DNA of 64,000 nucleotides, from positions 66,386,643-66,450,642 of the forward strand of contig NC_084799.1 of NCBI RefSeq assembly GCF_963169125.1, given 5' to 3'. The position numbers were made by a program, and so were the translations under genes. Positions 18,487-64,000 of the stretch are shown here, piece after piece (position 1 is the first letter of the stretch; every line of letters begins with the position of its first letter). The DNA is from Humulus lupulus. Its lineage: Eukaryota > Streptophyta > Magnoliopsida > Rosales > Cannabaceae. The notes beneath the pieces are model-generated. The model was not told the origin of the DNA. It made no database searches and saw nothing but the letters and a program-made list of their open reading frames with translations.

Positions 18487-18547
18487 GTTGAAGAATAAGA
18501 AGAAAAATACGAGAGAGGGAAGGAGAAAGTGAAAGGTAATAATAATA
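18472..18547 (+). pseudogene. 5' stub of a methylesterase-like pseudogene, cut by the MULE
   Basis: The sequence just left of the MULE ends in (AAT)n, and the sequence just right of it continues (AAT)n into the methylesterase-like frame. Read in that frame, the left stub is Lys/Glu-rich and already has a stop (TAA at about 18495), so it was either decayed or 5' UTR. The assignment rests on continuity across the insertion, not on a domain. Confidence 0.4.
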
Positions 18548-18660
18548 GGGAATTTCATTATTTATGTCTAATAATGTCTAAAATTACCAAAAAATCCCAA
18601 CACTAACAATATTTTCAAATTAATGCTAAACTTTTCCCTCATACCCGAAATACCCTTCCC
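18548..18660 (+). repeat. Left terminal inverted repeat of the MULE
   Basis: About 110 bases match the reverse complement of the right end with few changes. The shared words include ATTTCATTATTTATGTCTAA, CCAAAAAATCCCAACACTAA and TTAATGCTAAACTTT, and the block closes with an AATACCC word. CT-rich leader-like sequence of the protease gene follows directly, so transcription probably starts close to the repeat. Confidence 0.92.
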
Positions 18661-19021
18661 ATTCAACCTCAGCCTTCTCTCTCTCAGTCTCGGTTTCTCT
18701 CTCTCTCAGTCTCACAAAAATCCCCCCAAAACCATCGAACCCCCACCTTCGTCGAGCCGTCGAGCCCGCATCTCCGTCGAGCCCCCACCTTCTCCGTCGA
18801 GCCCCCACCTTCTCCCATTTCTCCGTTGATCTCGAGACCCACTGCAAACTCCCATTTTTCTGTCAAACCCGTGACCCACGGAGCATATTTCCTTCAAAGT
18901 TTAAAAAACAAAGGTAAAATCTTGAACCTAAGTCCATATTTGCTTTGTATTGTTGTTGAATCTGTGATTTGTGGAATGGGTTGTCCGATTTTGTGGGAAA
19001 TTTTTTCTGGGTTTGAACCAG

Positions 19022-19445
19022 TGGCTTGATAGGTTCGATTATGGTTCGATAGTAGGCTCGATAGGGGTAGTTTGAACAGTTCGATGATGGATCGATAGGA
19101 GCTCGATAGATCTATGGCAATATATGAAACTAACTCGATAGGATCGATTATGGTTCGATAGTAGGCTCGATAGAAGCTCGATAGGAGCTCGATAGAAGCT
19201 CGATGGATATGTGGTATATATTACAAGGGCTCGATAGGTTCGATAATGGTTCGATATTAGACCAGACTGTAGCTCGATGGTTATTTATGTAGACAGATTT
19301 TTCTTAGCTCGATAGGCTCGACACTGGCTCGATAGGCTCGATAAATTTAGGTTGTTGATATTGCTCGATGGAACTTGATAGTTGCTCAATAGGGTATGTT
19401 GCAGCTCGATTATATCTCGATAGAGATCGATAGAGCTCGATGACA
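19022..19445 (+). repeat. CTCGATAG-type subterminal repeat array, left arm
   Basis: The words GCTCGATAGG, GGTTCGATAG and AGCTCGATGG recur about every 10-30 bases with irregular spacing. About 25 copies of the TCGAT core are visible. The array lies in the 5' leader or first intron of the protease gene. The right arm carries the same word in opposite orientation, so relative to each element end the motif points the same way. Confidence 0.85.
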
Positions 19446-20704
19446 ACTTATTTCAGTGTTTTTATGAAATTTTTTTTATTCTGTTTTCTTACCAATTTTT
19501 TTTCATGTGTTGTTACAGATGCCTAAGTTGCTTGTTCCATTCAGTGATCACTTTCCTGGTCGAGTGACATATCGGGGTAGTAGTACTTTAAATCACATTA
19601 AGACCAGGTTTTTGGAGCTCGGGCTGCTTGAAAGGGCTAAGGAATCCCCTTTCAAGCAATTCTTTTTGGCTTCGGAGTTTAATTTCTCCGGAGTCTTGGT
19701 GCATCAACTGTTGCTGAGGAAAATCGCCAGCAACAACGAAGATGAGGTGCATTTTTTCTTGGGGTCGAAGTCTTGTAGATTCGGCATGGGAGAGTTTGCC
19801 CTGGTGACGGGGTTGGATTTCAGTGCCTTCCCGTCACCAGAAGAGTTGGAAGGGCGTAATCTCAGCGACCGGTTGATAAAGGAGTATTTCAACGATGCTG
19901 AGAAAGTAAAGCTGTCACAGGTGGACCATGCTTTCAAGACTTGTACGGTTGTGGAAGATGTGTACAAGCTTGGTCTATGTCTGTTTGTTGAGGGGGTTCT
20001 GAATGCCATTGAGGGCAAGTTGCACATTTGGTGAGATATTCTAAAAATTGTTGAGAATGTAGAGTAGTTCTTCAGCTATCCATGAAGTACTCTTATAGGA
20101 GGCTGTTGCATTATTGTAAGAAGGACATGGTGAAGCAAAATGCCAACTATGATGCCAAGAAGGATGCCAAGGTGCAGCAAGAGTCCAAATACAGTATGTA
20201 TGGTTATGCCCCCGCCTTACAGTACTGGGCATATGAGGCTATCCAACAGCTTGCGGTGGAGCTTGTTGTGAGCTTGGGAAACATGTTCCTGAGGATGCTT
20301 AGTTGGTCGCATCGGAGGAACAAGGATTTCACCAAGTCCGTCATCGCACCGATATTATTGAAGAAGAATGTAAGTTATGTTTTTTTTTCTATCTATATGC
20401 TTATCTTTTATCATTATTTGAGTTAACCAAATGTTTTATGTTGTTTGCAGTTAATTGTTCTTCCGATGTTGAAGCCTCGGCTAGCAGAAAAAGACTATTA
20501 CTTGTCTTTGACTGAGGGGAGATCTTCCCCTTTATCCTGGGCTTGGCCAGGATCCCTCGGAGACTGATGAGGAGGAGGATGCGACTTTTGAGAAAATGGC
20601 AGAGAAAGTTTCTCAGGCTGCTGAGGCAGCCAAGATATTTGTTGATGCTGCCCCGGGGGAGGAGGTTGTAGGTCCCACCCCTCCTATTGCCCCAGCCTCA
20701 GCCC

Positions 20705-20872
20705 CAGCCTCAACCTGTGCCCCAACATCAGCCCCAGCCTCAGCGTCAGCCCCAACACCAACCCCAACACTAGCCTCAGCCTCAGCCCCAGCCTCAACCT
20801 GTGCCCCAACATCAGCCCCAGCCTCAGCGTCAGCCCCAACACCAACCCCAACACTAGCCTCAGCCTCAGCCC
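20705..20872 (+). repeat. 84-bp in-frame tandem duplication in the Pro/Ala linker
   Basis: Two near-perfect copies of an 84-base unit encode two copies of a 28-residue Pro/Ala/Ser/Thr-rich block (PASTCAPTSAPASASAP and onward). The unit length keeps the reading frame. It enlarges a disordered linker between the DUF1985 and protease regions. Confidence 0.9.
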
Positions 20873-21496
20873 CTGAGCTCGCCGACTTGATTGAGTGGTT
20901 GGACAGAGTCGAGGGTCGACAAGAGACCCTCTTGAAGAACCAGTCAGTGATCTTGGACGTACTCAGTCAGATCCTGACATTTATTAAGGAGAAACCGAGG
21001 GGGTCCAATGAAGATTCAGAGTCAGAGTCATTGGATATTCCGCTAGACTATGTTGATGATCCAACGACGCCTCCTACCATCATTGTGACACCAGATGCTG
21101 AGACTCCGGGAGTCGTTATTGTCAACCCTGAGGATGTTGCTGGGGTTTAGTTTCAGAGGGCTAGACGCCAAAGACGCAAGCCAGATTGGTTTGAGGACTA
21201 TACGGATCCCACGAGGAAAAGACCTCGCACTGCTGCAGCTGCACCAGCAGACGAGGCTACACAAGAGGCTACACATGTGCTGGACCCTCTCAAGAAGCCA
21301 GATCCCAAACAATATAGGACAATGTGCAAGTGGCTTCTTGGAGACATGCCCAACAAGACCCCGCGGGATGTAAAGACTGGGAGTCACGGTCCAGCGTGGT
21401 TTCTGACGTTGAAGACACCCCAGTCGTGGCTCAATGATGGGGTAAGCCATTTATACCTAATTATGGACTGTTTTCAATTTTACATGTTTTATTTTT

Positions 21497-22110
21497 ACTG
21501 ACTCGATGTGAGCTCGATAGGAGTTCGATAGTAGTTTGACATGGATGTTAAAATAGGGGTTGTTCTTTACTGTTTCAGAGTGGCTCGATGTGAGCTCGAC
21601 GGAGCTCGATAGGTAGTTCGATAGGGATGTTAAAATAGGTTGTTTTTTTTACTGTTTTAGACTGGCTCGATGTGAGTTCGATATGAGTTCGATAGTAATT
21701 CGATATGGATGTTAAAATAGGTTGTTTTTTACTGTTTTAGACTGGCTCGATGTGAGCTCGATATGAGTTCGATAGTGAAATTTCCCTTAAAAATAGGGTT
21801 TTTCTTTACTATTTCAAAGTGGCTCGATGTGAGCTCGATGGAGCTCGATAGGGAGTTCGACAGGGATGTTAAAATAGGTTGTTCTTTACTGTTTCAGACT
21901 GGCTCGATGTGAGCTCAATAGGAGTTCGATGGTAGTTCGATAGGGATGTTAAAATAGGTTGTTTTTACTGTTTTAGACTGGCTCGATGTGAGGTCGATAT
22001 GAGTTCGATGGTAGTTCGATAGGGATGTTAAAATAGGGTGTTTTTTACTGTTTTAGACTGGCTCGATGTGAGCTCGATATGAGTTCGATGTGAGCTCGAT
22101 GGAGCTCGAC
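21497..22110 (+). repeat. Tandem array of about eight 75-85 bp units in protease intron
   Basis: Each unit contains GGCTCGATGTGAGCTCGATA, then two or three TTCGATAG words, then GGGATGTTAAAATAGG and TTTTTTACTGTTTTAG. The copies vary in length and one is partly replaced by GAAATTTCCC-like sequence. The array fills most of intron 21442-22164. Each unit ends in a pyrimidine tract plus TTTTAG or TTTCAG, which looks like a 3' splice site. Confidence 0.9.
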
Positions 22111-22883
22111 AGCAGCAATTTATAATAGTCTTTGCTAATTTTTTTATCGTACTCTCTTTTGCAGCATATTGATGCGTCAGAACACATGCTTTGTATGCGT
22201 CGCAAGTATTTTCCCAATATATATCGACAGAATGCAGTTGTGATGAACAATTATTTCTCACAAGTGATACCTGCCCGATATGATCAGTACAAGCAAACAG
22301 CCGACAAAACAAAGTATTATTGGGATGCTGACATTATGTCCATGTTGACCGGCATCGAGCAGCAGTTTCTGGCATCTTGGGGAGGAGTTGAGGATGTATA
22401 TTGGTGCCAGAACTATGGACAACAACATTGGTTTGCCATTGAGGCTTCCATTTCTAGTTGGACTCTGACTGTTTACGATTCGGAAAACTCGGTGATTAGT
22501 GACGCAAAGCTTGAGGATATTATGAGTCCATGGTGCTTTATGCTTCCTTCTCTGTTAATGCAGAGTAAACTGTTTACTGATAGCTTGATGTTGAAGATTC
22601 CATCAGCAGGAAATAGGCCGCATCGGTTCACATTGCGTCGCAAACAGAAACACGAGCTCCCTAAGTCAAAGAGAAGGTAACAAACATCATCTTCATACTA
22701 ATTTTGTTTCTAACTAAATTTATAGTAATGTGCACTTAATATTTACTTTTTTCTTTACAGCGGGGATTGTGGTGTGTATGCTATCAAGTATATTGAGCAT
22801 CTAATGGTCGGTCTTCCATTGGAAACTATCTGCGATGAAAATATGGAGGTGTTCAGGAACAAGTGGACCACAGACTTGTGGTA

Positions 22884-23150
22884 TCAAAATTTGTTACCTT
22901 GATGATTGTATATATATAGGGTCTTTACATGTACAGTTTGTTGTTCATATTTTTTTTATAACTTTCATGGGCTGTTATTGAGCTAATATCAAGCTATATC
23001 AAACTATTATTGAATTATCAAAATTTGTTACCTTCATGATAATCTTGTATACGGGGTCTTTACATCTCCAGTTTCTAACTGTTATCATTTTTTTTATAAC
23101 TTTCATGGGCTGTTATCGAGCTAATATCAAGCAATATCATTTTCATATCG
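22884..23150 (+). repeat. Tandem duplication of the protease gene 3' end (about 133 bp)
   Basis: Copy 1 starts at TCAAAATTTGTTACCTT, within the last codons of the protease gene, and copy 2 starts at 23017 with the same word. Both run through GGGTCTTTACAT, a T-rich tract, TTTCATGGGCTGTTAT and GAGCTAATATCAAGC. The repeat is imperfect (about 85-90 per cent by eye). It occupies the space between the two convergent genes. Confidence 0.85.
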
Positions 23151-23228
23151 AACCATTAACATAAATTTTAAGAAAAATCAAATAAAAAGAGTTTATTAAT
23201 ACAACAAGTTCAAATGGGAAAAAAGAGT

Positions 23229-26200
23229 TTAAAGCTTAGCTTTGCATGTAGCCCTGTTGTGGCCAAGACCACCACACATGCTACACTTGCGCTCTTTGCG
23301 AATGATTTCTCCATTTGATGGAGTGCGGTTTGTCTTCCTTCTTCCCACCTTACTCTTCTTCGGTCGACCAACTGGTTGTTTTTCAACGGGAACCCCAACT
23401 TGCATTTTCTCTATGTTCTCAGGAACTTCCCAATCATCCTCGTTGCCAGTTAGGTAAATTGTTTCTTTGTAAGACTCCCTCCACATCTCAGTAGTGTAAT
23501 ATGGTGAACACAGTGAGTAAATGTTGACATTGCGCAACATGGCCGCAGCCACACCATGAACACAAGGGTAACCCATTATTTGAAACTGACCACAAGAGTA
23601 TGATTTGGTCATCAAATTCACCTCACCATCACCTTCTGGGTCTACCACATGAAATTCAAACTGTCCAAGAGGATGGACTTTCAAGTACCTTGCATCATCC
23701 GCAATGCCTGAGACATCTTTCTCATATATTGTTGCTAATTTGGATGTGCACTTCTCTACCTCCTCACAACGCGCGACAAACCATGACTGAATTGTGAAAC
23801 GAATGAATTCCACAAAAGTAGTGACTGGGAAGGTTCTTGCGTCTCTGGTTTTGTTGTTGAAACTTTCAGCGTAGTTGCTTGTCATTACATTGTATCAATT
23901 CCCAGGAAAGTATGCACGAGTCCACTTATCGAAGCCAATACCCTCGAGATATTGAGCTATGGCAGGATCCATTTGCTTTATATTGTTGAAGAACCTGTGA
24001 AATTTTGACTTCCGAAATGCATATGCCGCATTCCACATCTCCTTGTGACAGTGATCGGTCTTGAACTTAGTGATTACATTCATACTTATGTGATGGTAGC
24101 ATGCGCCGTGGTAGGCATCAGGGAAGACCAACTCAAGAGCATGAATAATGCTAGCATGCCTGTCTGATACAAAAGACAGATTATCAACAACTCCAATGGC
24201 TTCCTTCAATTTCATCATGAAATACTTCCAAGAAGCATGATTCTCACTGTCAACAATCGCGAATGCAATTGGATAAATGTGGTTATTCGCATCCAATGCG
24301 ACAGCACACAACATGTGGCCACCGTACCTTGACTTCAAGAAAGTGTCGTTCACACATATAACAGGACGACATGATGTAAATCCCCTTCTACAAACTCCGA
24401 GTGAGAAGAAACAGTAAAGAAAGCGACCGTCATCTGTGACAAAATCAGTAATTGTACCTGGATTCTTTTGCTGCAGCATGTACAGGTAAGAAGGTAACTT
24501 GGAGTACGATTCTTCAGGTGTCCCCCTGACATAACCGAGTGCCTTCTCTCTGCATCTCCAAGCCTTCATATAACTCATATCGATCCCAAAATTATTCTTC
24601 ATATCCTCCTTTATGCTGTTTGGTGGATAGCTAGTGCCATTAGTAGCATATTTGTTCTTGATAAGGTGCCCAATGACAGAAGGTGCTGCTTGACGGTGGT
24701 CTTTTTGTCGCAATTCTAGTGAGCAAGTATGTACACTATTATAAACAGTGATCTCAAACATCTCTGATCGCGCTACTTTTTTCCCTCTTATTCTCCAACC
24801 ACAATCAGGATCCTTGTAGGTGATATACAACACATCAGTACCAGACTTCTTAACCATAAACTCAAAATTATTCTTCATTGCAAAGAGAGCCGCTTTGGTT
24901 TTCAATTCCATCTTGTTCTCAAATGTCTTCCCAAGATGTAATTCCCCCAACGCTACACCGGATGAGGGTGATTCAGAACGACTACAAGCTATGATATCTT
25001 CTTTTGTAAACATGGGAGCACTCCATTTTCTGTGATCTTCTGTTGAACATATTGAAATGTTCCCTGTATAGTTATATTCTGTTCCACCAGGACGACTAGA
25101 GCTGGTGCCAGGTGTTCGACGTCCTTTACTTGGTGGGTTCGTCCGTGCAATATGACGTATTGGTTGTTCTTGTGCTTCTTCTACTTGCAAATGTTCAGCT
25201 AATAGATCATCATCCACTGAATTGTCTCCTAAGTCCTCATTGTGTTCAGCTACCGGATTGTCATTCACATAGGGGTTGTACTCATACTAGTTGTCCCTCA
25301 GGTCACCAATAGGAAATCCTAAAGTACTGGCTGCTCCCTCAGGTCCGGGAGTGGAATATGGGTCTGCAATGACAATCTTTTTAACAGGAGTGACACACAA
25401 GGCCAACCTTTCTTTAGATGTTACTCCTAAGAATGCACGGACACCAAGATCACTTTCAACATGAACGGGTGTAAATGGTTGGTCGTCGCAAGTGTAAGGA
25501 ACCTCCAATTTCAACTCATACATCTGTTTATCAACTTTAAGTTCCTTGTGCAATATGTCAAGAAGTTGCAAGTACGTTATAGTATCCTCCATCGGTATCA
25601 CCATGCATTGAGGGTTCTTGAAAATCCACTTATTCCCTTGTAATTCCCAAACACCATTGTAGGGTACAAAAACGTAGACAATAGAGCCTGTGTTGGAAAA
25701 AAAAACATTAACATTGTCAGGAAAACTGTCATTTTTTCAGAAATACATTAAAAAAGAACATTATCGAGCTTTATCGAGCTATCATCGAGCTTTATCGAGT
25801 TCTCATCGAGCTCTTATCGAGTTAGCATCGAGCTACCATTTCTCAAAACTGAACAAAAACCTAACCAAACCCTCTATCGAACCGCATCGAGCTCTTATCG
25901 AGTTAGCATCGAGCTACCATTTCTCAAAACCGACCATAAAACCTAACCAAACCCTCCATCGAACCCTATCGAGCTCATATCGAGCACATATCGAGAAAAC
26001 CTAAACCTATCGAGCTCAAATATTGTAGGGTCCATTCGAACCCTTATCGAGTTTTCATCGAGCACAATCGAGCACTAAAACCCAAACCTATCGAGCTATA
26101 ATCGAGCTCACATCGAGCTACATCGAGCTCTTACAAGACCTTCTTCTACATACCATCGAACCGTTATCGAGCAAAAAAATTGCAGAAAACCCAGAAAAAC

Positions 26201-26327
26201 ACAGATAGCGGAATCTCTCAAAAAATCCCGAAAAATACACCAATATAGGCTCAGATCTGTTCAAAATAGCCAAAAAAATGTAAACAAATAATACCCAACA
26301 CATAAAATGTAAAATCTTATTACCCAT
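23229..26327 (-). pseudogene. mudrA-type MULE transposase, single frame with two nonsense codons
   Basis: On the minus strand a first coding exon of four bases (ATGG, 26327-26324) joins an acceptor CAACACAG at 25688. One frame then runs from 25687 to 23229, for 820 codons in all. The N-terminal domain (about residues 1-120) matches that of the second MULE at 51.9 kb. The catalytic region has VNDTFLKSRYGG, VSDRHASI and CYHHISMN. SWIM-like and zinc-knuckle motifs follow (SCGQFQIMGYPCVHG; CSMCGGLGHNRATC). The SWIM-like motif has only one Cys in its first pair. Only two stops break the frame: TAG at 25289-25287 (CAG expected) and TGA at 23897-23895, in the conserved GN-YN motif (CGA expected). 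Both are C-to-T changes in methylation contexts. The acting site would be the nucleus. Confidence 0.9.
25765..26175 (-). repeat. TATCGAG-type subterminal repeat array, right arm
   Basis: The words TATCGAGCT, CATCGAGCT and TATCGAACC recur throughout, about 30 copies of the ATCGA core. They are the reverse complement of the left-arm motif. The array lies in the intron and 5' leader of the transposase gene. Confidence 0.85.
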
Positions 26328-26524
26328 GGTTTTTCTCCTCCAAAAACTCTCAAAATAGATGTTGCCTTTGATATTAACGACTTCACAGAGACAATGGAGA
26401 TGACTAACAATGATTTTGACAAGAAAATTATACAAAACTGTAGGTTTTATGGATGATTTCGTGAGAATTAGAGAGAGAGAGGGAGGAGAGTGGAAGAGAA
26501 GGTTTTGTGATTTTTTGATATAAT

Positions 26525-26638
26525 GGAAGGGGTATTTTGGGTATGAGAGGAAAGTTTAGCATTAAATTGAAAATATTATTAGTGTTGGGATTTTTTGGTA
26601 ATATTAGATATTATTAGACATAAATAATGAAATTTCCC
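26525..26638 (-). repeat. Right terminal inverted repeat of the MULE
   Basis: As reverse complement it begins GGGAAATTTCATTATTTATG and follows the left repeat through CCAAAAAATCCCAACACTAA to an AATACCCC word. It differs from the left copy by about a dozen substitutions and one A insertion near the tip, so the copies have diverged moderately since insertion. Confidence 0.92.
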
Positions 26639-27072
26639 TAATAATAATAATAATAATAATGGGAACCAATTAGGACTACACTTCGTGCTAGTCCATGGAT
26701 CAAGCCATGGAGCCTGGTGCTTGTACAAGATCCGTGCTCTGATTGAAACTTCGGGTCATAAAGTCACATGCCTTGACCTCAAAGGCTCAGGCATCGACTC
26801 TGCTGATCCAAACACCATTTTTACTTTCGCTCAGTATAATTGCCCTCCCTCCCACCCAACCAAAAGGTAAACACTCGGCACAAACACTCTATTCAGTAGT
26901 CAAACATATATGTATTGAAAGGGTTTTCTTTATTTTGAAGGTAGTACTGGTGGGACATAGCGCAGGAGGGCTTAGCCTTACGGATGCAATACATAAAAAT
27001 GCTGAGAAAATTCTTTTTGCCGTGTTTGTTGCTGCTAACATGATGAAAAACGGTAGAGATGAAAAACGGTAG
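26639..27072 (+). pseudogene. Methylesterase (MES, alpha/beta-hydrolase) pseudogene fragment
   Basis: After (AAT)n the frame reads GLHFVLVHGSSHGAWCLYKI, then GHKVTCLDLKGSGID and TFAQYN, the typical start of plant methylesterases (MES17-like). A 74-bp intron (26867-26940, GT...AG) precedes VVLVGHSAGGLSL, which holds the nucleophile Ser of GHSAG. Before the intron a short segment between YN and SLPPNQK is missing, with a frameshift. After exon 2 the sequence ends in a duplicated ATGAAAAACGGTAGA word. The region that should hold the catalytic Asp and His is absent. The family hydrolyses methyl esters of hormones. This copy is non-functional because it is split by the MULE, frameshifted and truncated. 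Confidence 0.88.
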
Positions 27073-29811: not shown

Positions 29812-32800
29812 ATGGCAGCAAATGATCCCAATTTTCATGAGGAGGAAATTTTAGATGAAGTTGACTACCCTCGATGCCCTGGAAATCAACCTATGGTGAA
29901 TTCGGACCTTGGTGAGAGGAGTGGATCATCCGACTCTCGGGGACCACTAGCCCCCAGGGACGACGAGGACATGTACTACAATCCTAAACGATATGTCCCG
30001 ATAGAGGAGCTCAAAAATCGTCAACTGCATAAGCAGTTGGCAGAGGCCAAGAAACGTAATGAGGAGCTAGCCAGACTAGCTGCTAAAGCGTAGGCAGTTC
30101 AAGCCCCACCTCTGCCAGAGGCCCAGGCTCCACCTCCGCGGGACGTTCATGTTCCACCATGTAGGCCTTGAGGGTGGCCACGCAAAAACGCTGCCACCCG
30201 AAGAGCGGAGCAACCTCCACCGCCAGCAAAGTAGCCTGCTCCGCCGAGGCCCCAGAGAAGTAACCAGGCTGGAGGTCCTACCAACCCAACTGCGGAGGCA
30301 CTGGCTGGAGTAGGGAATAACCGAGCCCCCTTGGAGGCTCGGACCCAAAATCCTGGTAATGCGCAGAACGCTGCAGAGCCTGATCGAGCAAACTCAGGGC
30401 CTTTTAGGCCCCGTAATGGATGGCAGCCACCATCACCAATAAGGCACCCACCATCGCCAATAAGGTATCCCTCACCAACTCGGAGGAACACATAATCGAC
30501 CCATGGTGATAGGGAAAGGCGAGCTGGGTGAAGGTGTGGAAATTGGGAGACTACTAGGGAGCATAGGGGTCCCCAACCCACGAGAAGCCAAATGTCTCGG
30601 TCTCACACTATTGAGACGAGGCAATCAGCAAGAATACTATCTCGGAACAACCATGCAACGAGCCATGTCAATGAAGGCTCGGGAGACACTAGATCAGTCA
30701 GTATATATGACCAGGAACGTAGAAACACTGGGAATCGAAGAAATCACCCAAATTTACGAGAACATCTGAACCATAATCGGGGGAATGATAATCCATCGAA
30801 CCCAGATCTGAGGGATCATCTCAATGGGCGCAAGAACCCTGCGCTAAGGCATGAAACTGGAGTTGTAATCAACGATAACCAGTTCCCGCTACTTCAAGTC
30901 AGACCCCCGGTAGATCCAGCCCAAGAAAGGATTGAACAGTTGGAAAGAGCGTTCAGGCTCTTACAAAACGAACGAGGTAGGGAACGGGATGAAGAGTTCG
31001 ATGAAGAACTCGAGCCCTTCGCCCCGCATATTTCTAGCACCTCGTTTCCTCAAGGATTCAGAATTCCTCATGTCCCACCATTTGATGGGAATTTGGATCC
31101 GTATAGTCATTTAAGCACGTTCAACACAATCATGCGAGCCAGTAATGTGGGCTACGAGCTCAGATGCATGCTGTTCCCAGCCTCGCTCACGGGACCAGTG
31201 AAGAACTGGTTTAAGAAGTATAAGAGACATTCGATTGCTTCTTGGGATCAATTATCAAGAGATTTCAAGAAGCAATTCAAGGCCATGGTCGGCATTAGGC
31301 CCGAGGCGTCTGCCTTGACCAATGTCCGAAAACAGCCGAATGAATCACTGAAAAGTTACCTCACGAGGTTTAATTTGGAAGTTGCCCGAGCTTGTGACGT
31401 CGACGACAGTGGCCATTTAATGGCTATCCGAGTCGAAGTAATGCCTGGAAGTCCTCTCTAGGAGGATATGCAGAGGAAGCTCGTAAGGTCCCTAACCGAG
31501 TTCAAACGACGAGCTAAGAGGTTTGTTAATGTAGAAGAGGAGAGGTCAGCATTGAATATGGCCTATCAGCCCATTACTACAACAACAAACGCAAACTCTG
31601 CCTCGACCTTGGCGGATCCTACGACCTCAAAACCCCCTGGGGACAACCCTTCTAAAAGAAAGAAGAATGAAGGGAATAATCCCGAGGCAGAAGGGGGAAA
31701 TAAGAAGAAAGAGGAAAGATATTTCTTCGTATACAAGGTGTATACCGAGCTCAATGAGTCTCTAGAGAATATCTACCTGGCTAATGAGAACCAGGTCCCT
31801 TTTAGACGGCCTGACCTTATGAGAAATCAAAAAGCAAAAAGAGACTCCAGCAAGTACTGCAGATTCCATAGAGATATCAGACATACAACCGATGAATGCA
31901 GGCAATTAAAAGATGAGATCGAAGGCCTGATCTCGAGAGGATATTTCAGACAATATGTTAGGAATCAAAACCCCAATCAGGCTTCCACCAGCCAGAGGGC
32001 AGCAGCAGCACCGCCTGCCCAGAACAGCAAATCCCGAGCACGGGAAGATGAACGACCCCCTCTGATTGATGGAGAAGATGTTATAACCATCTCGAGGGGA
32101 CCACATATTGCAGGATCGGGTAGGAACGCCCAAAAAAGATATGTCAATGACCTGAAAACTGGTGACGGGTCCCCTTACGAACTCGAACCCAGAGCTCCAA
32201 AACAACAAAGGGTTGAGTCTCAACCCATAACTTTTACTGAGGATGATGCGTCTCACGTACAATTCCCTCACAACGACCCGCTGGTCATCACCCTTCAGCT
32301 CGCAAATAAGAGGGTACATCGGTTCCTAATTGACAATGGGAGCTCAGTGAATATCCTCTACAAGGCCACTTTAGAAAAGATGGGACTCACGCTTTGCGAC
32401 CTAAAGGCCTGTGCAACGACATTGTACGACTTTTCAGGAGAAGGGATTGCCTGTATGGGATCCATCGAACTCCCCGTAACCTTGGGAGACTTCCCAGTCT
32501 TGACAACCAAGATGATGGAGTTTGTAGTGGTGGATCTTCCATTGGCCTACAATGTTTTGCTCGGAAGACACGCCCTAGTAGGGCGGGGGGCCGTTTCGTG
32601 CGTTAGGCACCTGGCCATATAGTTCCTGACTTCTAGTGGCATCGGGACGCTAAAAGGAGACCAACTCACTGGCAGGGAATGTTACAGCATTTTCGTGAGA
32701 GGGAAGAAGCAGACAAGCACACAAACGCTTGTAGTAATTCAGAGTAAGGATGGGACAATTTTCGAAATAGATGAAGAGATTGATCCAAGAATAGAAGAAA

Positions 32801-33683
32801 GGGCTGACCTCGAGCCCCTAAAAGAACTCGAAGAGGTTGATCCCCCAAAAATTGTGAAGGTAGGGAAAAACCTTCAAGAAGAAACAAAATATCAATTAAT
32901 TTGCTTCTTGAAGAAGAACCAGGATGTTTTCGCATGGTCATATTCGAACATGGTAGGAATAAGTCTGAATGTGATGAGCCACGCCCTTAACATCGATATG
33001 AGCTTCCCCCCGAAGCAACAAAAACGAAGACTCCTAGACGATAACAGGAAGAAAGCCCTGAAGGAAGAGGTTGACAGGTTGAAGGCAAACCAATTCATAT
33101 GAGATGCCTTCTACCCTGATTTGGTCGCTAACCCAATACTAGTTCCAAAGCCTAACGGAACATGGCAGACCTATATCGATTACTCCGACCTCAATAAAGC
33201 ATGTCCTAAGGACTGCTTTCCCCTACCTCGAATCGATCAGCTCGTAGATACCACAGTCGGGCACAAACTTATGTTGTTCATGGATGCTTATTCTGGATAT
33301 AACCAGATTGCCATGCATGCCCCGGACCAAGAGCATACGAGTTTTGTGACAAATAAAGGACTATACTGCTACAATGTCATGCCATTCGGGCTCAAGAATG
33401 CTGGAGCCACGTACCAACGACTCGTAAACATGATGTTCTCCGAACATATAGGTAATAACATAGAAGTGTATGTTGATGATATGTTGGTCAAATCAAAACA
33501 TAACAATAACCAAGTGGACGACCTTGAAGAATGCTTCGCCGGGTTGCGAAAGTACAACATGAAACTCAACCCCCAGAAATGCTCTTTTGGAGTATCATCA
33601 GGGAAGTTCCTGGGTTTCATTGTGAACGCGCGGGGAATAGAGGTTAATCCTGACAAGATCCAGGCGTTGATTAACATGCCCTC
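29812..33683 (+). pseudogene. Tat gag-protease-reverse transcriptase frame with eight nonsense codons
   Basis: One reading frame runs from ATG 29812 to the LTR insertion at 33684 without a frameshift. It is interrupted only by stops at 30091, 30169, 30232, 30493, 30529, 31459, 32620 and 33100. Gag includes the capsid region FPQGFRIPHVPPFDG and a KYCRFHRDIRHTTDECRQLK zinc-type motif. Protease has FLIDNGSSVNILY with the DNGSS variant of the active site. RT has YIDYSDLNKACPKD, FMDAYSGYNQI, MPFGLKNAGATYQR and an intact VYVDDMLVKSK catalytic box. Most of the stops fit CAG-to-TAG or CGA-to-TGA changes. The family copies its RNA into DNA in cytoplasmic particles; this copy cannot make the full polyprotein. 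Confidence 0.92.
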
Positions 33684-35978
33684 TGTAACGCCCTGGATAG
33701 CCAAGACCGCTACACTGTGTACTTATAAAGGTGCAGGACTTGCTAATCAAGTCATTTAGTTAAAAACGTGTTACTGAAACCATAAATGTGCTAGGGTTAA
33801 GAAAGGTTTTGGTTTCAAAAGGTACGTTTCATATAATTAAACATTTTACACATGGGATCCCAAAAGAAATAGCGTTTATAAGTCAGTTTACAAAATTTCC
33901 AAAATACAAACAACCACCAGCCTCTCTAAGGGCAAAACAAACGTTTATGGTTCTCCTGTTCCTGTCTTCCCCTCAACCGTGACGGCTGAGCAGGTGATCA
34001 TGTACATTCTGCTCTCAAAGCTCTCCAAATCAGGGCTGATCAAGTTTGCCCTTGCCTTTACCTGCACCACGTAGCACCCGTGAGCCTAGGCCCAACAAGA
34101 AAACATATCATCACATAACAAACAACGATAACAGTTGAATAACCCTTTAAGCATGATCATTTACTTAACATTCCACATTAATCACATAGCATGTAAACAT
34201 AACCAAAGATTCAACTAATCAACACTCAGCTATTCAGCTCAACAAATTCACCAACCATTAATAACAATTAGGTTACAAGATAATTAAGGCCGACAACTTA
34301 GGTCGCACCCTCTGTTTATCCCACTGACTTCAGCCCGCTTAAACCGAGCTCAGTGCATAATAAGCTGTCCTCGGCTACCAGTGGCCGAGCCGTGCCCTGT
34401 GCGCAAATTAAACTTTGGCACTCTTAGGCCCTTCGTTTACTATTTACATGGCATGATACCATCCTTTATAAAGCATACAAATCAGGGAGCTCTTATTCCC
34501 ACTATGAATCCACAACCAAGTGCAGTTTTCTTACCTTTAGTTCCCAAGTGTACTAACTACGTGCGATGCCTCTTCAGCAAGATCTGATCCCCGAGCCCTA
34601 GCTTAATACCTAGTCACAACCAAGATAAGGCATACCATCAATAATCGTAAAAGGGCTCCTAGAAAAAGTTCTAGTCTCTGGAACATTGAACTCCACCAAA
34701 CATGATAATAGATTCAATCCCGAGCACCCTAGGTTAAATTCCCATGCTTAAAATCCCAAAATCCCTTAAGGGCCACGACTCAAGCCTCCCATGCCGCGGC
34801 ATAGCCCCCAAAAAGATCCCATCAGAGCTCAGAACTAGACACGGGCGGCGGCCTTACTCAGACCATGCCACGACCCGCCCTCCATCTCCAGCATCCATCA
34901 GCTTCAGAGGGCCGCGGCTCACCAAGAACTATGCCGTGGCCCGACCCCTTCGAACCCAGAAAATCCTCCATTTTTTACTCTCAAACCTCACTTAAACCCA
35001 TCCAAAACTATCCCAATTCCACAACTCAATTATCCCAAAACTTCCCACATGATTCCAGCAACACAACCCAGCTGAAACCTATACTAGAAACTCATTAATA
35101 ACTCACTTCAATCTCTGAAACTCACATGCTCAAAAACATCAAAACCAGTCATGCAAACTCAGAATTTAAACTCTAAATTACGAATTGAAGCTTACCTTCT
35201 TTGATGAACCAACTTCCTTAACAATCCTGAACTATAACCCAAGCTTTCAAGCCTCAATTCTGCCCTTCAACACCAAAGTTCATAAACACTTCAAAACCCA
35301 GCTATAACATAGAATTTTAATCACCATGCTTCAAGCTTAAATCTTACCTTAGTTCTTGGCTGAATCCTTAGCCGAACTCTGGATTAATCCTTCCAAATTC
35401 CAGCCCAATCCACTAAATTCCCAGCTGAGTTCCTTAGGTTCTAGTGATTTTTCCTTTAAGAGAGAAAGGAAAAGAGAGGGAGGGTCGGTTCCTTATGTTC
35501 CACTATGTTCTGAGTCTCTTACTTAGTCTATCTTTAAGTGGTTAAGTTAATCCCAAGGCTCGGGGTGCTGGAAACGTCCCCGAGGGCAAAATAGTAAAAT
35601 TCCCCAGTATTCCCACCTAGACTTCTTAACCACAAATATATCTCCAATTATTTATTTCCATAACCCAATAATCTAAATAACCATCAAATACTTGAAATAC
35701 CCCTTGACTTGTCCAAAGTCAAGTATTAAGCCCCGTTGTGACTTTCCCGTTACCTAGCTCCCTAGGATCGCCTCAAGTCGCTTGTTGCAGATTCACTCAC
35801 ATAATAATGTGGTTCTCACAAATATAACATATAATCACATTAACATTTACATAACCATACAAGCATGCTTATCATATAATCATGCATTAAATCAATAAAT
35901 TCACACATAAACCAATTATGCCCTCCCGACACACTAATCAAGGCCCTTAAGCCATATTATTGATTTTGGGTCGTTACA
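33684..35978 (-). mobile_element. Solo LTR, same family as the Tekay-type element at 58.6 kb, minus
   Basis: The block starts TGTAACGCCCTGG and ends GGGTCGTTACA. It is flanked by a perfect CCCTC duplication (33679-33683 and 35979-35983). As reverse complement it matches the LTR at 58630-60854 closely at both ends and through the middle (for example the GACTTGATTAGCAAGTC word). Removing the block and one duplication restores the RT-RNase H frame of the Tat host. It is 2,295 bp with no internal region, so a solo LTR. Frames within it are not genes. Confidence 0.93.
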
Positions 35979-36565: not shown

Positions 36566-37264
36566 TGTAACGCCCTAAACTCCAGGGACCGTTACGGTGT
36601 GCCTTGTAAACAGTGCTAAACTCGCTAACCGAGTCATTTGGCCAAAATTGTGTAACTAAGTATGATTAGCAGTTTAGGGATTAAAATTTTTGGTTAAGAT
36701 GTAACGCTTCACTAGAACGTTTACTGTATACATTGGGATCCCAAAAATATAATTTAAAGGTCTATTACAGGAAAATATTTACAACTGGCCGATCTAAGCG
36801 GCAAAATAGGGTTTAACCCTAGTTCCTTTCCTTCAAACCTCGGCCATGGCGGTCGAGCAGCTGCATATGTACACATCAACACCTAAGCTCTCCAACTCAA
36901 GGATGGTCCAGCTTCCTTTTGCCTTTACCTGCACCACATAACACCCATGAGCCGAAGCCCAGCAAGAAAACTCAATATGCTCATGAACAGTCATATCATG
37001 ATATCAAATCATATCTGGCATGCCTAGCAAACATAGCCTTATTCAAGCATGCAAATAAACTCAAACAATGCTGGGGAATCGAGGATCAGAAATCCTGCCC
37101 TCCTGATTGGATGACTATCAAGTCAATCCTAATCAGGTGAGTGATTTAACACTAGAGGTTCTGGTAAACCATACTGAGTGACTGATAAGAAAGTCACTAT
37201 GGGGCTCAATGCTCATAGCCGTGTAACGAAACCGTTACCTGGGCTTTCTTGCTATGGCTCTAAT

Positions 37265-37470
37265 CAGATGAGTGACTGATGGGTAGTCACTAGCTTAAAC
37301 AGATGAGTGACTGCTAGATAAGTCACTAGCTTAAACAGACGAGTGACTGCTGGGTAAGTCACTAGCTTAAACAGATAAGTAACTGCTGGGTAAGTCACTA
37401 GCTTAAACAGATGAGAGACTGATGGGTAAGTCTCTAACTTAACAGATGAGTGACTGATGGGTAAGTCACA
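37265..37470 (-). repeat. Six tandem copies of a 36-37 bp stem-loop unit in the LTR
   Basis: The unit is AGATGAGTGACTG...GTAAGTCACTAGCTTAAAC. Six copies are visible with small changes. Each contains GTGACT...AGTCAC arms that can form a short hairpin. The related LTR at 5901-8132 has only about two such units (7520-7605), so the array has expanded here. Confidence 0.9.
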
Positions 37471-51447: not shown

Positions 51448-51911
51448 CTATAACGTCTGGATTTGTCTCGGGAACACATGTTCCAACTCACCTTGAGTTC
51501 CTTTGAAACCATGACATGGAGGAGAAATGTTCTCTTCAAATCGAACTTCTTTATTAACGCTGGCAGAAGCCGATGCATTTCTTATACCTCCCTTCTTAAT
51601 CAATGTCACACATAGAGGAATGAGCTTCTCTATAGATTTCGATGCTAACCCAATGAATGCACGCACATGCCTATCATTTTTTATAACGGTAGGTTTGACG
51701 GATTGTGATATGCATGTGTACGGGACCTCAATTTTCAAGTCATGCACACATTTATCCACTTCAAGCTCATCGTACAGAATATCAAGCAATTGCTCATACG
51801 TCACACCCTTCTCCACGGGCAGAACTTGATTTTCAGCATCCCTGAAAATCCAATCCCTATTTTCAAGTTCCCAAACACCATTGAATGCAACAAATACGGA
51901 AACAGTCAAGT
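51448..51911 (-). pseudogene. N-terminal domain of a second mudrA transposase
   Basis: After an acceptor TTGTTGCAG at 51912 the frame reads TVSVFVAFNGVWELENRDWI, then EQLLDILYDELEVDK, LKIEVPYTC and VRAFIGLASK. Each block aligns with the N-terminus of the first MULE transposase (FVPYNGVWELQGNKWI, LQLLDILHKELKVDK, LKLEVPYTC, VRAFLGVTSK). The frame needs one base from an upstream exon, and an ATGG at about 52527 could supply it as in the first element, but its donor reads AT instead of GT. The frame ends at 51448; beyond it the other frame holds more transposase-like sequence to about 51378. Confidence 0.85.
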
Positions 51912-51975: not shown

Positions 51976-52370
51976 TCGATTTCTATCGAGGTCAAACTAT
52001 CACACTATCGAGGTCAACCCATCGATTCCAATCGAGTCCTATCGAAGCAATACTACATAATTAAGTTTTATGCCTCTATCGAGGCTCATCGAGGCATATC
52101 GAGGTAGCCATTTCCCCTTATGTGAGGATGTTATCGAGACCCATCGAGTCTCATCGAGGCATATCAAGGTAGCCATTTCCCCTTATGTGAGGATGCTATC
52201 GAGACCCGTCGAGGCTCATCAAGGCATATCGAGGTAGCCATTACTCCTTATGTGAGGATGTTATCGAGATCCATCGAGGCTCATCGAGGCATATCGAGGT
52301 ATACAAATAATATAATACATGAGGATTTATCGAGGTCCATCGAGGACCATCGAGTCCTATCGAGGCAGAC
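51976..52370 (-). repeat. ATCGAGG-type subterminal repeat array of the second MULE
   Basis: The words CATCGAGGC, TATCGAGGTAG and TATCGAGAC recur about every 10-20 bases. A longer unit of about 70 bp with GTAGCCATTTCCCCTTATGTGAGGATG recurs three to four times (52085-52265). Position relative to the transposase leader matches the right-arm array of the first MULE, but the base after TCGAG is G instead of C. Confidence 0.88.
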
Positions 52371-61336: not shown

Positions 61337-64000
61337 ATGCGTCCAAGAAAATCTACACGACTAGCCGGCACTAGGTCCGAGATCGGGGGTGATGGCCAGG
61401 GCTAGACTCCTCCGCCAGTGCCTGAGAACTGGCAACAGTTAATGGCTGAGACACAGGCTCGATTACAGAGTCAAGATGAGCAGATTCGTATTTTGCGACA
61501 GCAGGCTCCATCAGGGAGTGCTGCCCCTATTGTACCACCTGCAGTGGTACCGGTTGTGCAGTCAGGGGAGGTTGGTAACAGATGGGAGCCGTTGTATGAG
61601 CGGTTCAGGAAGCAGCAACCCCCAATCTTTGAGGGTGGATCGGATCCATTGAAAGCCGAGCAATGGCTAACTATGATCACCGTAATTCTGGATTTTATGA
61701 GGATAGAGGGGCATGATAGGGTGGCCTGTGCCACTTATATGTTAAGAGAGGATGCCCGTATTTGGTGGGAAGTGGCATCGCAGACCAGGGATGTTACTAC
61801 TTTGAGTTGGGAAGGTTTCAGAGACTTGTTCAGTCAGAAGTACTACAATGTTGCTGTCAGAGCAGCAAAGGTCAATGAGTTTGTGAGTCTTGTGAAGGGC
61901 AATATGACCGTTACTGAATATGCCCTAAAGTTTGATAGGCTTGCAAAGTTTGCTCCAGATCTTGTGCCTACTAATGCTGCTAGGCAAGATCGATTTATCA
62001 GGGGGCTTAATGCTATGATAGCGCGGGATGTCAGGATTACAATGGTACCTGGAGGAACAACTTATGCCCAGGCCATTGAGAAGGCTCTTACCGCTAAGGA
62101 AGCGGAGAACCAGATATGGAGGGAAAGTGCGGTGAGGCGCGAGGGCCACAGAGCGGTGCCTCCTCACTCTGGGATAGGTAGGGGTGGAGGCCCCAATGAC
62201 TTCAAGAGAAAGGCTCCTGACACTTCGACCGCTGCTGGTCCTGATAAGAGGGGTCGAGGTGGTCAGGGTGGCCGTCAGGGTGGTGGCAAGGCATGGCGGA
62301 CCTATCCGGAGTGCCCGAGGTGTAGAAGACGCCATCTGGGCGAGTGTCGGGCCAAGGCGTGATTTGTGTGCGGAGCAGTAGGGCATCTCAGGAAAGACTG
62401 CCCAACGGTGAAGAAAGGTGAAGCACGAAAGGTGGATAGCTTGACTCCAGCTCGAGTATTCACCTTGACTCAGGCAGAGGCCGAGGCTAGTCCCTCGGTA
62501 GTGACAGGTCAGCTTTCTAGTGCTGGCTTTCCTTTTACAGGATTTATTGATTCTGGTGCTACACATTCTTTTGTTTCTAGTAGAGTGATTGATAGATTGT
62601 GTAGACCTAGTGTGTATCAGACTGCAGGGTTTGGGACTTTATTGCCTACAAGGGAACTGATAGTTTCTAGGAGATGGATTAGGGCACTGCCAGTGATGGT
62701 TGATAGTAGGGAACTCTCGGTGGATCTGATTGAGTTAGACATGGAGGATTTTGATATGATTTTGGGGATGGATTGGTTGGTCAGGTATGAAGCTACTATT
62801 GACTGCAGGAAGAAGATGGTGACTTTTGAGCCTGAGGGCGAGGACCCTTTTGTCTTTGTGGGTGCGGTGTCTGGACCCCGCGTACCCATGATTTCAGCGT
62901 TGAGAGCCAGAGACTTGTTGCAGGGGGGATGCATAGGTTTTCTAGCCAATGTTGTGGATACTGCTAGAGTTATGCTGGCAGGGCCGCGAGAGACCAGATT
63001 GGTGTGTGAGTTCTTAGACGTATTTCCTGAGGACGTACCAGGGTTGCCGCCGCACAGGGAGATTCAGTTTGAGATTGAGTTAGCACCGGGGATAGAACCA
63101 GTATCTAGGACACTGTACAGAATGGCACCACCAGAACTGAAAGAGTTGAAGATACAGTTGCAAGAACTTCTGGATTTGGGATTCATCAGGCCTAACTATT
63201 CTCCATGGGGCGCTCCAGTGTTGTTTGTTAAGAAGAAGGATTGGACCTTGAGGATGCGTATAGATTATAGAGAATTGAACAAGTTAATTATCAAGAATAG
63301 GTACCCTCTACCAAGGATTGATGACTTGTTTGATCAGCTGCAGGGAAAGACGGTGTTCTCAAAGATTGATCTTCGATCTGGTTATCACCAACTGAGGATC
63401 AAAGATGAGGACATACCGAAGACGGCCTTCCAGACACGGTATGGGCATTATGAGTTCTTGGTCATGTCTTTTGGTCTGACCAATGCCCCAGCAGCCTTCA
63501 TGGACTTAATGAACAGGGTGTTCAAGGACTTCTTGGATCAGTTCATCATTGTCTTCATAGACTACATCTTGGTTTATTCCAGTTCAGAGGCAGAGCATGA
63601 GCAGCATCTCCGACAGGTTTTACAGAGGTTAAGGGAGCATCCGTTGTATGCCAAGTTTAAGAAGTGTGAGTTTTAGTTGCCAGAGGTGACTTTTCTTGGG
63701 CACATAGTTGGGGCAGAAGGGATTAAGGTGGATCCGTCCAAGGTAGAAGCAGTAAGGGATTGGCCGAGGCCAAGGAATGCCTCGGAGGTTCGAAGTTTCC
63801 TTGGATTGGCCGGTTATTACAGACGGTTCGTAGAGGGGTTCTCAAATATTTCTTCATCGACGACAGAGTTGACAAGAAAGAATCATAAGTTTGTTTGGTC
63901 AGAGAAGTGTGAGAACAGTTTCCAAGAGTTGAAGCAACGACTTATTTCTGCACCTGTGTTGAGTCTTCCTTCGGAGGAAGATAAGTTTGTGGTCTATTGT
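61337..64000 (+). pseudogene. Tekay-type gag-protease-RT polyprotein, three stops, RT active-site change
   Basis: The frame starts at ATG 61337 (MRPRKSTRLAGTRSE) and stays in one frame past 63676, to the window end as far as can be seen. Gag has the Retrotrans_gag core (EQWLTMITVILDF, then DARIWWEV and FRDLFSQKYYN). A zinc knuckle follows, [12 protein letters not shown]. Protease has [14 protein letters not shown] has [29 protein letters not shown] and [18 protein letters not shown]; its catalytic box reads FIDYILVYS, with Tyr (TAC, 63563-63565) where the second Asp belongs. Stops are TAG 61403, TGA 62360 (just before the knuckle) and TAG 63674 (TGG expected). The element could act only with proteins supplied by intact relatives. 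Confidence 0.93.

Follow-up and report, generated by a model that had tools for sequence, protein, structure and literature searches.

Word arrays in Mutator-like elements of hop as probable targets of a VANC-type anti-silencing system

A 64,000-bp stretch of the Humulus lupulus genome (contig NC_084799.1, positions 66,386,643 to 66,450,642, hereafter the window) holds a Mutator-like element (MULE 1) and part of a second MULE, both with dense arrays of a short word built on TCGAT, and we consider it very probable that these arrays are the cis-targets of a VANC-type anti-silencing system. MULE 1 encodes a homologue of VANC (DUF1985), dense same-direction short-word arrays lie in noncoding parts of this same element (predicted introns), and among solved structures the hop DUF1985 protein is closest to VANC21 in complex with the DNA that it targets. 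At the sequence level the hop elements look like VANC systems. The original prediction named no function for such arrays; one is in fact on record, since the arrays of VANDAL MULEs are the targets of VANC proteins (Hosaka 2017, PMC5735166).

The arrays were predicted in both arms of MULE 1 and in the second MULE, where we counted 25, 25 and 21 TCGAT copies, respectively, and a further array of 27 copies in the interior of MULE 1 had been overlooked (Table 1). Dinucleotide shuffles (1000 per array) gave 8 copies at most, and in shuffles of the whole window (n = 50) no 450-bp segment held more than 4, so the arrays are not chance. The copies of array 1 span 19035-19441 on the forward strand (n = 25), and those of array 3 read ATCGA on the forward strand at 25763-26170 (n = 25). 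With exact TCGAT as the anchor, the base at position -2 is G in 23/25 copies of array 1, 20/25 of array 3 and 68/77 of all three MULE 1 arrays, and C in 14/21 copies of the second MULE; the proposed contrast between GCTCGAT and CCTCGAT is therefore present within the window, but the wider family of the second MULE (family 2, with that of MULE 1 as family 1) mixes A and C at this position. The word spacing, described at first as irregular, is regular within clusters: neighbouring words of MULE 1 less than 17 bp apart are spaced 9-12 bp, mostly 11, and 12/13 near pairs of the second MULE are spaced 10 bp, which is about one DNA turn. Where longer gaps separate the clusters, inspection of the window-array spacings by eye showed no constant phase. 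The words are mirrored between the arms as predicted, but they follow the sense of the adjoining gene in all three MULE 1 arrays, and we prefer this description because array 2 fits it alone. CpG observed/expected is 1.5-1.7 in the arrays versus 0.46-0.55 in coding parts; the words themselves contain CpG, so this is no separate evidence. Between the convergent gene ends, at 22882-23139, a 138-bp unit is repeated 1.9 times with ATCGAG-type and decayed words, perhaps a small fourth array.

MULE 1 consists of two convergent genes, DUF1985 with an Ulp1-type peptidase on the forward strand and a mudrA-type transposase on the reverse strand, and shows the Mutator-like hallmarks of a MULE transposase domain, terminal inverted repeats (TIRs) and a 9-bp duplication. 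The TIRs are 116 bp long and 91% alike (18548-18663 and 26522-26637), and the 9-bp AATAATAAT flanks the element on both sides, within a TAA microsatellite, so that the duplication is not unique. The window copy is damaged, with two in-frame stops in the transposase and a shortened DUF1985 frame. Elsewhere in the genome copies have longer open frames, that of DUF1985 measuring 319-350 aa in many of them. All three arrays are predicted to be intronic, with splice sites assigned by eye: array 1 lies directly before the DUF1985 start, array 2 would interrupt the Ulp1 domain, and the intron with array 3 comes straight after the short exon predicted to begin the transposase gene. The residues that flank the predicted Ulp1 intron are uninterrupted in Parasponia P0020, which has the DUF1985 and Ulp1 domains in one protein. 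In MULE 1, Ulp1 lies opposite to mudrA and is predicted to be joined to DUF1985, and a later Ulp1-side frame reads GDCGVYA, which we take to be the expected Cys region. Between DUF1985 and Ulp1, a coding tandem repeat rich in proline, alanine and serine (42/84 bp) occupies 20689-20873; tandem peptide repeats are reported from variable regions of VANC proteins (PMC5735166).

Table 1. Positions in the window of the two elements, their genes, word arrays and predicted introns (a slash marks a predicted exon-intron boundary or its place in the protein).
Feature	Position	Strand	Description
MULE 1	18547..26639	.	~8.1 kb
Predicted 5' intron with array 1	18914..19518	+	AAAG/GTAAAA ... TTACAG/ATG
Array 1	19022..19445	+	25 TCGAT; consensus G(C/T)TCGAT(A/G); spacing mostly 11 bp
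DUF1985 (VANC-like) coding start	19519..20034	+	open frame of 188 aa in window copy
Predicted intron with array 2	21442..22164	+	interrupts Ulp1 domain at WLNDG/HIDA
Array 2	21503..22100	+	27 TCGAT; ~seven 80-bp tandem units
Ulp1-type peptidase (C48) exon	22165..22680	+	domain match
mudrA-type transposase	23229..25687	-	DBD_Tnp_Mut, MULE, SWIM, zinc finger/knuckle matches
Predicted first transposase intron with array 3	25688..26323	-	ACCATGG/GTAATAAG ... CAACACAG/GCTC, giving MGSIVYVFV
Array 3	25763..26175	-	25 TCGAT; spacing 10-11 bp
Second-MULE transposase, N-terminal piece	51448..51909	-	53% identity to MULE 1 over 104 residues
Second-MULE array	51985..52363	-	21 TCGAT, CCTCGAT-dominant; spacing mostly 10 bp

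CACTA and Ac/Ds elements have subterminal repeats to which their transposases bind, and a MULE transposase could likewise read the words to bring the element ends together. Such a role would agree with the two arrays, out of three, that lie mirrored in the arms, and with the different words of families whose transposases differ, but we regard it as unlikely, since a large array sits mid-element in a predicted intron (27 copies in the window copy W1, 28 in L071 and 60 in L069, there at L069 3110-4320), the arm arrays begin ~470 bp inside the ends, past the TIRs, and the second gene supplies a candidate binder with a DNA-bound solved relative. Because this closest solved relative is VANC21 on DNA, we take the DUF1985 protein to be the better candidate for the binder, ahead of the transposase. 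The original prediction had favoured the transposase as binder of arrays that shift between families. Binding by a protein gains from partial conservation of the core, from arrays at 60/60 loci and from a word type that follows the DUF1985 tree, but the transposase is not distinguished from DUF1985 in this respect: the word and the transposase N-terminus both differ between the families, as expected for covariation, and DUF1985 differs about equally.

Of the second MULE, the window shows one arm and the N-terminus of the transposase; queries with the proteins of MULE 1 and a screen for inverted repeats brought up nothing further. In its relative L070 the two genes are likewise convergent and an array precedes each of them, with none at the place of the Ulp1-intron array. 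When searched with the MULE 1 TIR, L071 showed both element ends, L069 a single end and L070 no end, and we therefore term L069 and L070 long rather than full. The DUF1985 side of family 2 was seen in two loci (L070, L086) and the transposase side of family 1 in three (W1, L069, L071).

Across the 2.48-Gb hop genome, a 17-base string of two words occurred 184 times and its reversed control 0 times. The DUF1985 and transposase N-terminus searches each gave thousands of first-look candidates, of which the best 150 were scored, and among the top 30 of these 150 in each protein-similarity search an array was present at every locus: 30/30 transposase loci of family 2 (15-30 TCGAT per 1 kb, one locus being the second MULE of the window) and 30/30 DUF1985 loci of family 1 (15-31 per 1 kb). 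Conversely, 8/8 loci selected by the word string adjoined a DUF1985 match, one of them of only 20 residues. By hand count, 55/150 scored DUF1985 matches tie at the top score, the window's own included, which we read as a sign of recent spread.

The arrays might also be functionless products of neutral slippage in introns, and tandem periods of 11, 80 and 65 bp in the array DNA, as well as word copy numbers from 15 to 31 despite near-identical genes (L039-L068), indeed point to slippage as the likely way in which arrays grow. As the whole explanation it deserves hardly any credence: arrays occur at 60/60 loci, one word is common to three separate MULE 1 arrays, and the T..AT core varies 7-fold (family 2) and 2.6-fold (family 1) below the linkers. 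In 30 copies of family 2, T..AT core sites were off consensus in 25/2085 cells, against 400/4699 A/T sites in linkers and 412/7031 in flanks. A similar but weaker picture is suggested for family 1, with A/T-site changes of 20/680 in the core versus 103/1381 in linkers and 159/1021 in flanks, in a gappy alignment (1207 columns for 700-bp rows) of 9/41 DUF1985-side rows, mostly diverged ones. We therefore rejected an origin by slippage only, the core sites being far stiller than the linkers; neither this nor absence from most family members, the two outcomes named in the original prediction as speaking against it, was found. The core C and G of family 2 vary by 6-7%, above the T..AT sites, as expected of CpG that becomes methylated once inserted. 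CpG was kept at 615/695 core, 98/111 linker, 325/388 coding and 183/254 flank sites, so the better retention relative to the flank belongs to the array as a whole and is not peculiar to the word.

Words also differ among further DUF1985 lineages. For 21 rows we determined, against 200 shuffles (minimum P 0.005), which 6-mer is most over-represented in the 1 kb that precedes the DUF1985 domain. The rows were 5 returned by the search and 14 chosen for diversity from a further 150 matches to the DUF1985 family, minus one of the 14 with N upstream, plus three rows of families 1 and 2, and 13/21 reached P 0.005. The best 6-mers were GCTCGA or CTCGAT in families 1 and 2, GTTGCT or AGGTTG in L072-L076 (word GGTTGCT), GGTCGC or GTCGCT in L077, L083 and L090 (word GGTCGCTTAG in L083/L090), and GAGCTC in L080 (word TAGAGCTC). 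On a DUF1985 tree with long branches and open forks, built after the word labels were assigned, each clade tends to have its own word and sister lineages have similar ones, which suggests co-evolution of word and protein. In the transposase tree, the CC-dominant family 2 copies L009, L029 and L037 group together (85/80, not starred; most other forks are open), which weakly supports covariation with the transposase. If the arrays bound host transcription factors, or acted through intron-mediated enhancement, to drive the element genes, their location within predicted introns and, for two of the three, close to gene starts would be accounted for; a different word per DUF1985 lineage is not expected for a host factor, and we hold this explanation to be very unlikely.

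Several observations weigh against VANC-type targets. CpG retention is equal in linkers and cores and thus no marker of the word, and the base at -2, which alone carries the GCTCGAT/CCTCGAT contrast of the two families, varies no less than the linkers do (12.3% and 10.0% in families 2 and 1). The identity between the two families is 53% for the transposase and 52% for DUF1985 (L070 against MULE 1), so covariation cannot separate the two binders. The fold model is confident for approximately residues 20-200 alone (mean pLDDT 56.7), and the TM-scores of the fold match to VANC21 are below 0.5. A clear array in the preceding 1 kb was missing for 8/21 DUF1985 rows (L078/L087/L089, L079/L084, L081/L085 and L088; 7 non-significant, 1 at P 0.05), which may have arrays elsewhere or have lost the system. 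L077 holds just four copies of its own word, and the L083/L090 words occur on both strands, in contrast to VANDAL21. Since words follow clades, common descent alone could yield the pattern, and independent shifts are few.

Under a VANC-type system, the DUF1985-Ulp1 protein would most likely bind the 7-bp words, which line up at intervals of about one helical turn within the predicted introns of the two element genes, and the bound protein would strip silencing marks from copies with the matching word, resulting in expression of the transposase and DUF1985-Ulp1. With an own word and an own DUF1985 protein per lineage, the effect would be confined to the own family. From sequence we infer the introns, the binding, the loss of methylation, the effects on expression and movement, and the co-evolution of protein and word. 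The 2022 EMBO J study of eudicot VANC systems by Sasaki reportedly found that DUF1985, DUF287 and Ulp1 domains were gained and lost, and specificity is said there to be set by word sequence, density and helical spacing. More tentatively, and with considerable doubt, hop may hold at least four parallel VANC-word pairs (CTCGAT, GGTTGC, GGTCGC and GAGCTC types, some with sub-variants), of which those with a CpG core (CTCGAT, GGTCGC) would form a methylation-gated switch: CG methylation by the host within the word would block binding, and binding would prevent this methylation, so that each family would be locked on or off.

Like the hop element, VANDAL21 (Hiun) of Arabidopsis, which encodes VANC21, is a MULE with a transposase and a DUF1985 protein, has dense same-direction arrays of short words in introns and terminal noncoding DNA, and has tandem repeats that expand and contract between copies, with different words in related families (PMC5735166). 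The VANC21 word YAGTATTAY and the VANC6 word AGTTGTCC/AC are without CpG, whereas the hop word has CpG in its core, and VANDALs are described as having either no TIRs or short degenerate ones (PMC5735166), whereas those of the hop element are 116 bp long. MULE 1, with its 116-bp TIRs at 91%, thus falls outside a strict non-TIR definition of VANDAL; TIRs of 46-174 bp are listed for the VANDAL group in a published table (PMC6446971). KAONASHI and KIU MULEs resemble the hop element in the Ulp1 domain of a VANC-type gene opposite mudrA, and Ulp1 MULEs include TIR and non-TIR types in grapevine and the TIR type in melon; the available portions of these accounts give arrays or words for Arabidopsis alone, whereas the hop element has them (PMC13317346, PMC2528002). 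Among the literature matches listed, none linked hop with VANDAL or anti-silencing. Judged by sequence, the hop elements are one more case of the already known VANC-type systems, with a word of their own; distinctive in hop are the CpG-core word, the sense arrays in predicted introns (family 1), the 116-bp TIRs and the several word lineages in one genome.

Directly past the right end of MULE 1 (26660-26870), LVHGS.HGAWC.YK was read by eye, which we take to be the start of an esterase-like gene, and MULE 1 seems to be inserted in or just before this gene. Elsewhere in the window, a 36-bp tandem repeat of 5.9 copies (37261-37469) has no relation to the arrays, and open frames at 30592-33759 and 61418-63676 resemble retrotransposon gag-pol.

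For the study of VANC-type arrays, hop adds a second plant genome that is well populated with them and contains several protein-word pairs for direct comparison, some of which differ at about one position only. The way in which VANC proteins switch targets becomes directly testable in hop, with the solved VANC21-DNA structure as a guide, and the hop pairs could yield new parts for the targeted removal of methylation.
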